Shown here: in pieces, positions 9,083-47,418 of the stretch
Layout of the letters: the number at the start of each line of letters is the position of its first letter
Position numbering within the stretch: position 1 is the first letter of the stretch
Source of the DNA: Maribacter sp.
GTDB lineage: Bacteria > Bacteroidota > Bacteroidia > Flavobacteriales > Flavobacteriaceae
Length of the DNA stretch: 64,000 nt
Assembly (NCBI GenBank): GCA_020629285.1
Contig: JAHDDP010000016.1
Coordinates: 1-64,000, forward strand
Reading direction: 5' to 3'
Notes under the pieces: generated by a model
Told to the model about the DNA's origin: nothing
The model's database searches: none
The model's input: the letters and a program-made list of their open reading frames with translations, nothing else
Program-made: the position numbers and the translations under genes

Positions 9083-10393
9083 TTAGGAGACTGCTTCTTT
9101 GTAAGTTTCTAAGCATCTTTCTCTAGCCATTTTGTGATCTACCATTTTTTCTGGGTACTTATCAGTATCGTATTCAGAAATCCATTTTTTAATATACTCC
9201 TTATTTTTGTCAAATTTATCTATTTGGGTCATAGGGTTGAATATTCTAAAATATGGAGCAGCATCAACACCACTACCTGCAGCCCATTGCCAATTACCAA
9301 CGTTAGAGCTCATTTCGTAATCCAGTAGTTTTTCAGCAAAATAGGTTTCTCCCCATCGCCAATCTATAAGTAAGTGTTTACATAGAAAACTAGCTACTAA
9401 CATACGAACGCGATTATGCATGTATCCGGTTTCGTTTAGTTGACGCATACCGGCATCTACTAAAAGATAGCCTGTTTCACCATTTTTCCATTTTTCAAAT
9501 TCTTCTTCGTTGTTACGCCATTCTATACGGTCATATTTTGCTCTAAACGCATTATTCACAGTTTTTGGAAAATGGTAAAGAATAGTCATGAAAAACTCTC
9601 TCCAAATTAATTCGCTCCAGAAAACCTTATTATTTTCGGTAATTGCCTTTTTCATCATTTTACGGACGGATACTGTTCCGAATCGTAAATGTGGACCTAG
9701 TCGTGATGTTCCACTTTCTTTCGCGGGAAAATTACGAGTGTCTTCATAATTATCGATTAGGGTAGGGGTTACATCATATTCCGGCACCTCTATTTTTGAT
9801 TTTTCAAAACCAATATCGGCTAGTGATAAGTTCGGTAATCGTGAATTTTTAATCAGGTTAGATAAATGTTGACTAGTGTAGTGAATCTTTAAGTCTTTAT
9901 CGGCGTTAAATTTATCTTGCCATTTATTTTTATAGGGCGTATAAACTACATATGGGTCGCCATCTCCTTTTACGATTTCATCCTTTTCAAAAATAACTTG
10001 ATCCTTAAAGTTTTTGAAAGTAATATCATTTTCAGATAAAATGTCTGATATTTTTTTATCGCGTTCTTTTGCGTAAGGTTCATAGTCTCTATTTGTAAAA
10101 ACAGACGCAACGTCATAGTCTTTTATCAAGTTTTTAAAAATATCTACTGGCTTGCCATGAAACATTGCTAAAGAGCTTTCATTCTCTTCTTGTAGCTGAT
10201 TGCGCATGTGCTGCAATGTTTCATGTATAAAGGTGAGCCTTGCATCGTCTTTCGGTAATTTGGAAAGAATTTCTTCATCAAAAATGAAAATAGGCAATAC
10301 AGGATGGTCTCCTTTTAATGCTTCAAGGAAACCTACATTATCATCCAACCTCAAATCTCTTCTAAACCAAAATATAGATACTTTTTTTGACAT
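9083..10393 (-). CDS. phrB: Deoxyribodipyrimidine (CPD) photolyase
   Basis: Repairs UV-induced cyclobutane pyrimidine dimers using blue light. The 436 residues show the N-terminal antenna-domain motif FWFRRDLRLDDN (8-19) and the FAD-domain motifs TGYMHNRVRM, LLIDWRWGE and SNVGNWQWAAG, which include the tryptophans of the electron-transfer chain. This is the class I photolyase/cryptochrome layout rather than cryptochrome-DASH. It is the third gene of an operon with an SRPBCC protein and an SDR; its start codon abuts the SDR stop codon. The operon's upstream dyad is shared with folE, whose product feeds pterin (antenna cofactor) synthesis. Confidence 0.93.
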   Translation of the reverse strand: MSKKVSIFWFRRDLRLDDNVGFLEALKGDHPVLPIFIFDEEILSKLPKDDARLTFIHETLQHMRNQLQEENESSLAMFHGKPVDIFKNLIKDYDVASVFTNRDYEPYAKERDKKISDILSENDITFKNFKDQVIFEKDEIVKGDGDPYVVYTPYKNKWQDKFNADKDLKIHYTSQHLSNLIKNSRLPNLSLADIGFEKSKIEVPEYDVTPTLIDNYEDTRNFPAKESGTSRLGPHLRFGTVSVRKMMKKAITENNKVFWSELIWREFFMTILYHFPKTVNNAFRAKYDRIEWRNNEEEFEKWKNGETGYLLVDAGMRQLNETGYMHNRVRMLVASFLCKHLLIDWRWGETYFAEKLLDYEMSSNVGNWQWAAGSGVDAAPYFRIFNPMTQIDKFDKNKEYIKKWISEYDTDKYPEKMVDHKMARERCLETYKEAVS

Positions 10394-11083
10394 TTAATTG
10401 ATGTTTAAAGTTGATAATCCTCCATCTACACCGATTACCTGTCCGGTCATCCACGTACTTTTACCACTTAAGAGAAAAACCGCTGCATTGGCGATGTCAT
10501 CTGCATTTCCAACTCTTTTTAAAGGATGGCGCTCACTCATCATCTCTCGTTTCTTATCATTGTTTAAAAGTCTTTTAGCTAAGGGGGTATCTACCAAAGA
10601 CGGAGCAACTACATTGACTCTTACCTTTGGGGCATATTCTGCCGCAAGTGACTTGGCGAAACCTTCAATTGCACCTTTAGCTGCAGAAACGCTTGTGTGA
10701 AATGGCATACCGGTACCTACCGCAATAGTACTGAAAAAGACCATACTTGAACCTTCGTCCATTTTTGATATAATCTCCTTCACCACTTTTACCATAGAAA
10801 AGAAATTAAGTTCCATATCATCTTTAATGGTGTCCAATGACATCATTTTAAATGGTTTCAGATTAATGCTACCCGGGCAGTATACAAAACCGTCAAGTTT
10901 TTCTGGTAGTACAGAAGTATCTAACACATCTGTAGTAACATCAAAAGGGATGTGCGTTATATTTTCATATTGCAAATCTTCTTCTGTACGAGATGCTACA
11001 AAAAGTTGATGTGTGTCTTGTAATTCTTTAACTATCGATAGCCCAATACCATGCGAGCCACCTATTAACAATATATTTTTCAT
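10394..11083 (-). CDS. SDR-family protein lacking the catalytic tyrosine
   Basis: A 229-residue short-chain dehydrogenase-like protein with the nucleotide motif GGSHGIG (8-14) and the catalytic-type Ser118 and Lys136. The position that normally holds the essential Tyr of YxxxK is Val132 (SVSAAK, 131-136), and the NNAG motif is CPGS (69-72). Photolyase-linked SDRs of this type recur in other bacteria (memory), so the change is probably a family trait and not a sequencing error. Activity as an ordinary dehydrogenase is doubtful. It is translated between the SRPBCC gene and the photolyase gene with zero-base junctions on both sides. Confidence 0.88.
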   Translation of the reverse strand: MKNILLIGGSHGIGLSIVKELQDTHQLFVASRTEEDLQYENITHIPFDVTTDVLDTSVLPEKLDGFVYCPGSINLKPFKMMSLDTIKDDMELNFFSMVKVVKEIISKMDEGSSMVFFSTIAVGTGMPFHTSVSAAKGAIEGFAKSLAAEYAPKVRVNVVAPSLVDTPLAKRLLNNDKKREMMSERHPLKRVGNADDIANAAVFLLSGKSTWMTGQVIGVDGGLSTLNIN

Positions 11084-11581
11084 TTAAAAAGATTTTAGTT
11101 GAAGTTGATTTGGAATGGAATCTACCACTCCAAAGAGTTCTTTTAATTTTTGCTCACGAAATTTAAATATTTCCATTAGCTGTTTTTTTACAATTAATGG
11201 ATGTGCTATTTGACCTAAGATACCAAGGGGAATTTTGTAATCTATAATATCTTCCATCAAAACACCTTCATCAATTTCTTTAATAAAGTGTTTGTGATGC
11301 CAAAGTGCGTAAGGTCCGAACCTTTGTTCATCGACAAAATAATTTCCTTGGTCTACATGTGTAATTTCGGTTACCCATTTAGTAGTATATCCTGGGAAAG
11401 GGGAAACTTTATATTGTATGATCTGACCAGGAAACATTTCTCTATCTGCACCGTCCAATATATTAAAACCCATATGTTCGGGAGTGATTACTTTTAAATT
11501 AGCAGGGTCAGATAAAAATTTCCATGCTGTATCTTTAGTAATCGGTAGAGCTTGTTTAGAATGTAATTGATATAGTTTCAT
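11084..11581 (-). CDS. SRPBCC (START-like) family protein of the photolyase operon
   Basis: A 165-residue protein of the SRPBCC lipid/ligand-binding fold, of the type often labelled 'cell division inhibitor' near photolyase genes. It starts with KQALPITKDTAWKFLSDPAN and continues with strands including GFNILDG and FVDEQRFGPYALWHHKH, typical of this subgroup. The ligand is unknown. It is the first gene of the SRPBCC-SDR-photolyase operon; its stop directly abuts the SDR start. The dyad at 11613-11643 is 32 bases upstream of the ATG. Confidence 0.85.
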   Translation of the reverse strand: MKLYQLHSKQALPITKDTAWKFLSDPANLKVITPEHMGFNILDGADREMFPGQIIQYKVSPFPGYTTKWVTEITHVDQGNYFVDEQRFGPYALWHHKHFIKEIDEGVLMEDIIDYKIPLGILGQIAHPLIVKKQLMEIFKFREQKLKELFGVVDSIPNQLQLKSF

Positions 11582-11612: not shown

Positions 11613-11643
11613 TGTCTAACATTAATCAAAAATAGTTAAACAA
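11613..11643. promoter_or_regulatory. Candidate operator shared with folE
   Basis: TGTCTAAC (11613-11620), 14 bases, then GTTAAACAA (11635-11643) form an imperfect dyad in front of the leftward photolyase operon. The same pattern, TTGTTCAAC-N14-GTTAAACA, lies before folE at 46775-46805. On the minus strand the outer TTG is placed like a -33 element, so a bound protein would block or reshape the promoter. The regulator is not in this window. Confidence 0.55.
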
Positions 11644-46589: not shown

Positions 46590-46774
46590 GAGAAAGTTTG
46601 TGTTAGAAGTATAATTATATTAAAATTCAAAATTAAGGAAAAAGGAGCATGCTAAAAATAGTTATTCGTTTTTAGTTAATCCTAATATAGCTTAAGGGTG
46701 ATTAGATATGGCAATACAGCAATGTAAACTATTTATGATATTTTTACGTTTGATGATGAAAGAATTCATTAAAT

Positions 46775-46805
46775 TTGTTCAACTTAAATTTAATTAGGTT
46801 AAACA
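46775..46805. promoter_or_regulatory. Candidate operator upstream of folE, shared with the photolyase operon
   Basis: TTGTTCAAC (46775-46783), 14 bases, then GTTAAACA (46798-46805), ending 13 bases before the folE ATG. The same dyad with the same spacing lies before the photolyase operon at 11613-11643. The outer TTTG (46774-46777) is placed like a -33 element, so binding would affect transcription start. Confidence 0.55.
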
Positions 46806-46818
46806 CAAATAGAAATTT

Positions 46819-47418
46819 ATGTCCCCATATAAAAATTTAGAAGAATACAATCTTGAAATTACCGATGAAGTTAAAAGCAGGTATTCATCAATAATTGATG
46901 AAATAGGTGAAGATGTATCTAGGGAAGGTTTGGTTAAAACACCTGAACGTGCTGCTAAAGCTATGTTGTTTTTAACTCAAGGGTATCAGCAAGATGCTGT
47001 AGAGATTTTACAAGGGGCAATGTTCAAAGAAGATTATGATGATATGGTCATCATAAAAGATATTGAATTATACTCATTATGTGAGCACCATATGTTACCA
47101 TTCTTTGGCAAGGCTCATATTGCATATATACCTAACGGACAAATAGTTGGGCTAAGTAAGATACCACGTGTAGTTGATGTTTTCGCTAGAAGGTTACAAG
47201 TGCAAGAAAGGCTAACACATGATATCTTAGAGTGTATTAACAATACTTTAAAACCTAAGGGTGTTGCTGTGGTAATTGAAGCATCGCACATGTGTATGAT
47301 GATGCGTGGTGTTCAGAAGCAAAATTCGGTAACTACAACATCTGGCTTTAGAGGTCAGTTCGAGAAAATTGAAACAAGAAACGAATTCTTGAAATTGATA
47401 AGCGCAAAACTTTCTTAA
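46819..47418 (+). CDS. folE: GTP cyclohydrolase I
   Basis: Converts GTP to dihydroneopterin triphosphate, the entry to folate and pterin synthesis. The 199 residues hold the zinc ligands Cys88 with CEHH (88-91) and Cys159 in HMCMMMRG, and the C-terminal [11 protein letters not shown]-type segment (here [12 protein letters not shown]). It is the type I (FolE) enzyme. It is monocistronic with the dyad at 46775-46805 just upstream, which links it to the photolyase operon and thus to supply of a folate/pterin light-harvesting cofactor. Confidence 0.95.

Follow-up and report, generated by a model that had tools for sequence, protein, structure and literature searches.

CarH is a B12-dependent dark repressor of carotenoid genes that is described from T. 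thermophilus, Bacillus megaterium and myxobacteria. Its published half-site is TnnACA, and the operators characterised for CarH consist of 11-bp direct repeats in tandem, each of the form nnnnTnnACAn (excerpts of PMC9304148). In Pseudomonas, class II LitR proteins act through T(G/A)TACA-N12-TGTA(C/T)A sites on light-inducible genes, among them phrB, cryB and folE, and the class II LitR clusters contain a short-chain dehydrogenase, an FAD-dependent oxidoreductase and cryB (excerpts of PMC9758184).

The Flavobacteriaceae account for a large share of the sequenced bacteria that bear proteorhodopsin (excerpts of PMC3587595), and the −7 promoter box of Bacteroidetes has the consensus TAnnTTTG (PMC3587595, section 29). 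In Dokdonia MED134 a response to light is reported for the genes of proteorhodopsin, of retinal synthesis, and of cryptochrome and photolyase (excerpts of PMC9040609). Proteorhodopsin expression in strain PRO95 is described as constitutive in section 29 of PMC3587595, which also states that proteorhodopsin regulation needs further work, and as light-responsive in the excerpted part of PMC9040609. MliR, an iron regulator that resembles MerR and comes from a marine flavobacterium (excerpts of PMC9478572), was set aside as a different protein because it has no effector domain. Titles and abstract beginnings of the open-access literature, among the matches listed, gave neither a link between CarH or LitR and proteorhodopsin nor a dyad of the kind described below in Flavobacteriia, an absence that carries little weight; the excerpted portions of PMC11796333, PMC9614035 and PMC5045206 hold nothing on Flavobacteriia, and that of PMC2860490 nothing on regulation.

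Here we analyse a 64-kb stretch of a Maribacter genome (hereafter the window) that contains two long inverted repeats, one before a photolyase operon and one before folE. We argue that these dyads are probably operators of one photoprotection and phototrophy regulon under a CarH/LitR-related MerR-type protein, a putative dark repressor that would depend on B12.

Two dyads in the window and their conservation

Both dyads of the original prediction were found where it had placed them and with the letters that it had given (Table 1). The photolyase-operon dyad, read on the minus strand, departs from TGTTTAAC-N14-GTTAAACA at one position, and the ends of the two dyads lie 31 bp (photolyase operon) and 13 bp (folE) from the first gene. 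The first gene of the photolyase operon had been labelled SRPBCC; the label found no confirmation, as neither Pfam nor NCBIfam returned a match. A homologue of this gene (at least 60% identity) is present in 34 of 36 Maribacter genomes, split in two pieces in one of them (G009).

Table 1 Features of the window and of the candidate regulator locus
Feature	Position	Strand	Sequence, family or remark
Photolyase-operon dyad operator (predicted)	11613..11643	-	TGTCTAACATTAATCAAAAATAGTTAAACAA forward; TGTTTAACTATTTTTGATTAATGTTAGACA on the - strand
folE dyad operator (predicted)	46775..46805	+	TTGTTCAACTTAAATTTAATTAGGTTAAACA; noted as TGTTCAACTTAAATTTAATTAGGTTAAACA, one mismatch
Operon gene 1, 165 aa ("SRPBCC" in the original prediction)	11084..11581	-	without Pfam or NCBIfam match
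Short-chain dehydrogenase/reductase	10394..11083	-	PF13561, PF00106
DNA photolyase/cryptochrome family protein	9083..10393	-	PF03441, PF00875
folE, GTP cyclohydrolase I	46819..47418	+	PF01227
−7 box match (TAnnTTTG), photolyase operon	11627..11634	-	TATTTTTG; between the arms, dyad positions 9-16
−7 box match (TAnnTTTG), folE	46770..46777	+	TAAATTTG; overlaps the left arm of the dyad
Candidate regulator, CarH/LitR-related MerR, 299 aa	contig C63, 50906-51805		upstream of crtI-crtB-crtZ
merR core in the source genome	L019 5884-5913 = contig C63 50883-50912		TTTGTTTAA...ATGAACA across the start codon

At zero to one mismatch the pattern TGTYYAAC-N14-GTTRAACA occurs in the window at these two dyads only, and at up to three mismatches there are 7 matches against a chance mean of 6.79, so that only near-perfect matches are informative. 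The source genome (3.6 Mb, 83% complete) has three matches to TGTTTAAC-N14-GTTAAACA at up to one mismatch, both window dyads among them, and none to the reversed pattern; at up to three mismatches it has 46 matches against 76 reversed ones. Scanning at three mismatches was rejected, its counts being equal to or below the control in window and genome alike. At up to two mismatches 10 distinct sites were found, 8 before genes and 2 inside ORFs. The corresponding ratios of matches to reversed matches in four other genomes are 17:7 (G108), 7:5 (G279), 7:8 (G361) and 7:4 (G288), and because the counts of the latter three barely exceed or undercut the control, sites with two mismatches need positional support.

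Such support comes from orthologous genes. A dyad at up to two mismatches precedes the photolyase operon at all 26 Maribacter loci scored, always 30–34 bp from the start codon, and folE at 23 of 30 loci; the reversed pattern at the same threshold is absent from the scored loci of both kinds. For the photolyase operon, 35 genomes had a match and 30 of these supplied one locus each; four of the 30 loci, in which the pattern found no start, were left out. At up to one mismatch, 36 Maribacter genomes hold 117 matches against 6 reversed ones, and 63 of 100 genomes of the order carry at least one match, with a sum of 182 matches against 15 reversed; the genome lists behind these counts are samples.

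Chance palindromes in AT-rich promoters would fit the three-mismatch counts, which do not rise above the control, and the two-mismatch counts of three of the four other genomes, which do so barely or not at all. They are contradicted, however, by the roughly twelvefold excess of sites with at most one mismatch over the reversed control, by the fixed places of two-mismatch sites before orthologous genes, where reversed controls number zero, and by the conservation counts; the spacing of the dyad and its place at the regulator gene merR (see below) are likewise fixed. We therefore give chance a negligible probability, and the dyad is confirmed as a real, recurring motif of the Flavobacteriaceae. 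Two outcomes had been named in advance as speaking against a shared operator, namely random genomic hits with no functional bias and loss of the dyad in close relatives. The data show the opposite on both counts: near-perfect matches are not random and lie before functionally related genes, and the relatives carry the dyad before the photolyase operon and, in most cases, before folE.

Proteorhodopsin and other genes behind the dyad

The third source-genome site at up to one mismatch lies between a gene for a fasciclin-domain lipoprotein (at 116 bp; PF02469) and a gene labelled mnmA-like by eye (at 158 bp). Of the eight gene-preceding sites with up to two mismatches, two are those of the photolyase operon and of folE. 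One stands before a QueD-folE2 pair that has a cryptochrome-like gene nearby, one before a TetR-ABC1 pair set against htpG, two before fasciclin genes and two before DoxX-like genes, the second of which (labelled by eye) is set against an FAD amine-oxidase-like gene. In other genomes, the site-to-gene tables cover the loci fetched, among the matches listed, with gene labels taken from BLAST against a small custom library and partly by eye. These loci have dyads upstream of crtI directly behind merR, which are perfect palindromes in L032–L034, L036 and L397, and further dyads at fasciclin, TetR-ABC1, folE, QueD, DoxX-like and SDR-like genes. The genome G108 alone has ten sites at up to one mismatch, one of them before an unnamed gene. 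Three of the other nine precede crtI, proteorhodopsin and TetR-ABC1, three precede fasciclin genes, two of which encode lipoproteins, and one precedes a TIGR03643 and folE2 cluster that adjoins a cryptochrome-like gene; the last two stand before genes for a CrtW-like ketolase and a mevalonate-kinase-like protein, both labelled from NCBIfam matches below the cut-off. Photolyase, cryptochrome, folE and redox genes are all preceded by one type of site, as in a light regulon of the LitR type, and a MerR protein would be the predicted binder.

Several features of these loci were observed in passing. Fasciclin-domain genes are common dyad targets in the fetched loci (L022 5668-6180, L020 2139-4166 and relatives). 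Tandem double dyads occur at L126 3001-3070, L413 2001-2070 and L394 1501-1565, where the two dyads are 40, 40 and 35 bp apart, respectively. At L393 1561-2258, a perfect dyad is followed by a 142-aa gene of no known family, a TIGR03643 gene and then folE2, which has a cryptochrome-like gene next to it; L128 and L133 also have small genes of this sort behind dyads. A second family of the order has a dyad between PAS-like and ECF-sigma-like genes (L026 1501-1530, genome G073), beside crtI-like and CarH-like MerR genes, as labelled by eye; the same type of site is found in L027 (G084). The label "kynurenine monooxygenase" for the FAD protein of L145 was dropped, its best NCBIfam match being a VioC-type oxygenase, below the cut-off.

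A rhodopsin gene is present in 70 of 299 sampled family genomes; in the 83%-complete source genome a proteorhodopsin gene was sought and not found. We compiled 68 proteorhodopsin upstream regions, 66 of them from the 70 rhodopsin genomes and chosen regardless of the dyad, plus two (L042, L154) that were found through their dyads, which there lie between the rhodopsin gene and blh, the gene of the retinal-forming enzyme Blh. Three genomes with partial genes (G141, G177, G364) and one of 69 loci, with too short an upstream region, were left out. A dyad at up to two mismatches is present in 32 of the 68 regions, and the reversed pattern in none.

The presence of the dyad follows the identity of the MerR protein of the same genome to that of the source genome: dyads were found in 19 of 20 cases at 60% identity or more, in 5 of 10 at 55–60%, in 4 of 18 at 50–55%, in 2 of 6 at 35–50% and in 2 of the 14 cases that gave no full MerR hit. 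This last class includes three genomes with weak or partial MerR hits (G222, G312, G367), and its two dyad-keeping genomes are 81% and 73% complete. Five proteorhodopsin genes (L168, L177, L179, L194, L200) have a shifted form of the site, AGTTTAA...CTAAACA; four of the five genomes encode a MerR of 51–54% identity and the genome of L177 gave no MerR hit. The shifted form may reflect a specificity that has co-evolved with MerR.

A named set of 80 proteorhodopsin loci, which overlaps in part with the 68 regions and is not independent of them, has the dyad in 61 loci at up to two mismatches and in 70 at up to three, against 0 and 1 for the reversed pattern. Carriers include loci of Maribacter, Croceitalea, Winogradskyella, Kordia, Nonlabens, Robiginitalea, Aquimarina, Leeuwenhoekiella and Dokdonia, and five or more mismatches were counted in 6 of 12 Polaribacter loci and in the Psychroflexus locus. 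The inverted arms are spaced by 14 nucleotides in 61 of the 80 loci, and no alternative spacing between 4 and 24 occurs in more than 2; the 8-bp arm recurs as a same-strand repeat in at most 13 of 80 at any spacing in that range. TGTT (positions 1–4) and AACA (positions 27–30) are invariant in the 61 sites, which were themselves chosen for closeness to the consensus. The commonest distance from the dyad to the proteorhodopsin start is 21 bp.

A CarH-like MerR protein as the candidate regulator

The original prediction had suggested looking for a MerR/CarH-type gene near a hit; a gene of this type, merR, lies beside crtI. A MerR-type helix-turn-helix is encoded at three places in the source genome, the candidate regulator gene among them; the downstream crtI, crtB and crtZ genes were read by eye. 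The regulator carries an N-terminal MerR helix-turn-helix (MerR_1; PF13411, PF00376) and a B12-binding_2 domain (PF02607), and PF02310 was not reported in the Pfam search. Its best relatives of solved structure are T. thermophilus CarH, with WQTDTISPAHEH matching WHRGEIGVAEEH and EIHDIG matching ERHEIG. The best NCBIfam match is the CarH equivalog NF052513, and because its score of 66.9 bits is below the 400-bit cut-off, the regulator is not classed as a CarH equivalog.

Almost every MerR protein read retains the two cobalamin-related motifs, Wx9EH and ExHxxG; the former is missing from L029 and the latter from L026, L027 and L229. In an alignment of 34 MerR proteins, W143 and E153 are invariant, and H154 and H193 are found in 90% or more. 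In the predicted structure of the regulator (pLDDT 89), full-length CarH is the first fold match at 18% identity, and both cobalamin-binding parts are matched well in fold; the ExHxxG histidine motif of the Rossmann domain aligns with CarH ERHEIG. The source genome also encodes a cobalamin adenosyltransferase.

Whether B12 serves as a light sensor in this protein bears on a further explanation, according to which MerR binds the dyads, does not perceive light by means of B12 and responds to a different cue, such as redox state, singlet oxygen or a partner photoreceptor. Class II LitR of Pseudomonas, which has one of the two B12 domains and a LOV protein as partner (excerpts of PMC9758184), offers a precedent, and B12-binding_2 is the only one of these domains that Pfam recognises in the regulator. 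The conservation of Wx9EH and ExHxxG, with W143 and E153 invariant, and the modelled match to both parts of the CarH cobalamin-binding region argue against this explanation, which we hold to be unlikely.

Several lines of evidence connect the dyad with this protein. First, at 54 of 58 loci a core of the site, TGTnnA-N18-TnnACA, lies over the start codon of the regulator's own gene. The left arm stands at offset −23 in 54 of the 58 and at no other offset between −40 and +4 in more than 2 of them; one of 59 MerR loci gave no hit, and L222 (G005), counted among 28 loci of "other genera", belongs to Maribacter. The right arm at merR coincides with ATGAACA, which encodes Met-Asn, and may thus be kept by protein constraint; the left arm precedes the start codon and is therefore the better evidence. 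A full operator at merR in Maribacter was rejected, and the claim for this site concerns the core, because the site differs from the full consensus by 3–4 mismatches at 29 of 30 Maribacter loci.

Second, the junction between merR and crtI itself may hold a dyad. Among junctions fetched by the MerR protein alone, dyads at up to two mismatches were found at 5 of 29 in other genera, and further perfect junction dyads, those of the five loci named above, occur in loci fetched by the motif; none of the 30 Maribacter junctions has a dyad at up to three mismatches. Third, outside the genus the dyad is present in 24 of 38 genomes with a MerR hit versus 3 of 26 without (Fisher P 4e-5, kinship uncorrected). 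Two genomes with the protein, G053 (MerR 71% identical) and G055 (53%), have no site at up to one mismatch.

Fourth, the co-occurrence of dyad and MerR holds where a TetR gene is missing. This bears on the explanation that the dyad serves as operator for a TetR-type protein, whose gene precedes that of the ABC1 (UbiB-like) kinase, and that merR is a bystander. TetR-ABC1 operons with a dyad upstream (L031, L037, L038, L047, L048, L052 and others) would fit an autoregulated TetR, and both families were confirmed at L047 (PF17931, PF03109). Yet six of the seven genomes that have MerR at 45% identity or more and give no TetR hit keep dyads (five in G054, three in G023, two each in G046, G056 and G062, and one in G002; none in G053), and both genomes with TetR and no MerR, G064 and G077, are without a dyad. 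As the genomes that hold one gene without the other side with MerR, TetR was rejected as the binder of the dyad, and we consider that explanation very unlikely.

Considering (i) the CarH half-site TnnACA in the arms, (ii) the core at the start of merR, (iii) the junction dyads, (iv) the co-occurrence that persists without TetR, and (v) the fading of proteorhodopsin dyads as MerR diverges, the CarH-like MerR is the likely binder of the dyad. The comparisons support the original proposal that a regulator of the MerR/CarH type controls the photolyase operon together with folE: both dyads are conserved in the genus, near-perfect sites show a functional bias, the core lies at the start of merR, and dyad and regulator co-occur.

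Promoter boxes, proposed model of regulation and comparison with known systems

Each dyad had been said to sit where it would overlap the promoter. A match to the −7 box TAnnTTTG lies inside the photolyase-operon dyad and another across the left arm at folE (Table 1). The same match starts at dyad position 9 at 13 of 26 Maribacter photolyase-operon loci, at −5 relative to the dyad at all 23 folE sites, and at position 16 in 11 of 12 crtI sites, which are chosen sites; all 13 crtI upstream regions were selected for holding the dyad and are uninformative on its frequency, and G108 is represented twice among them (L245, L397). Among 61 proteorhodopsin sites the box is found at position 15 in 14 and at −5 in 10. 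Shuffled spacers place a box inside the dyad in 2.5–10% of cases. The trinucleotide TTG is found 18–20 bp upstream of the −7 box for only 2 of the 42 boxes that lie inside dyads, so that classic promoter geometry was rejected and no −33 element is claimed.

The position of the box also bears on the alternative that the dyad is the site of an activator or of an alternative sigma factor and not that of a repressor. In favour of it, MerR proteins are often activators, and dyads of one gene class keep a fairly constant distance from the start codon (30–34 bp for the photolyase operon, most commonly 21 bp for proteorhodopsin). The arms, however, are symmetric, unlike promoter elements, and the box lies at dyad position 9, 15, 16 or −5 depending on gene class, which suits blocking better. 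Because the position of the box differs between gene classes, blocking of the polymerase is likelier than activation of the MerR type, and we regard an activator or sigma factor site as quite improbable.

For the repressor that we favour, we propose the following model. In the dark, the MerR protein carrying adenosylcobalamin would occupy the inverted TnnACA half-sites; sitting over or against the −7 box, it would block transcription. Light would break the cobalamin bond, upon which the protein would be released and the genes expressed. The two inverted half-sites, whose cores are 18 bp apart, might be spanned by a dimer of dimers, which is a guess. That the protein binds the sites directly, is loaded with B12, represses in the dark and is released by light is inferred here by analogy with CarH, and a light-responsive regulon would be the consequence.

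On balance, and with less assurance than for the operators themselves, we favour the broader proposal that across the Flavobacteriaceae a single photoreceptor, dependent on B12, induces proteorhodopsin along with carotenoid, folE/pterin, photolyase and cryptochrome genes. The light pump and photoprotection would then form one B12-dependent programme, and the operator would be a novel, inverted version of the CarH site, with the start codon inside it at the regulator gene. Membership of proteorhodopsin in the regulon was unexpected, and this larger regulon could not be seen from the window. The analysis names a candidate regulator, gives the operator exactly along with a list of genes, and predicts that the system depends on B12; if the proposal is true, flavobacterial phototrophy is tied to the supply of vitamin B12, and the CarH half-site extends to a different operator layout.

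The light-responsive genes of Dokdonia belong to the same groups as those of the dyad regulon, and their regulator is not named in the excerpted part of PMC9040609; at two Dokdonia loci proteorhodopsin is preceded by the dyad, with 2 mismatches in L279 and 3 in L320. Class II LitR, exemplified by PplR1 of Pseudomonas putida and PmlR2 of P. mendocina, resembles the present system in regulon content, with phrB and folE (excerpts of PMC9758184). Unlike class II LitR, which combines T(G/A)TACA-N12-TGTA(C/T)A sites with a LOV sensor and one B12 domain in the same excerpts, the regulator described here has both cobalamin-binding parts, as judged by motif and fold.

CarH of T. thermophilus, Bacillus megaterium and myxobacteria shares with the regulator the MerR helix-turn-helix, the cobalamin region and the motifs Wx9EH and ExHxxG, and the likeness extends to a gene that adjoins crtI, the half-site TnnACA and a site over promoter boxes. 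The systems differ in three respects: the operator here is the inverted TGTnnA-N18-TnnACA and not a tandem of 11-bp direct repeats; the regulon is dispersed in the genome and includes photolyase, folE and proteorhodopsin; and the regulator has 18% identity in the fold alignment and scores below the equivalog cut-off. The present system is thus of the CarH/LitR kind, set apart by the arrangement of its operator and by a proposed regulon that takes in proteorhodopsin.
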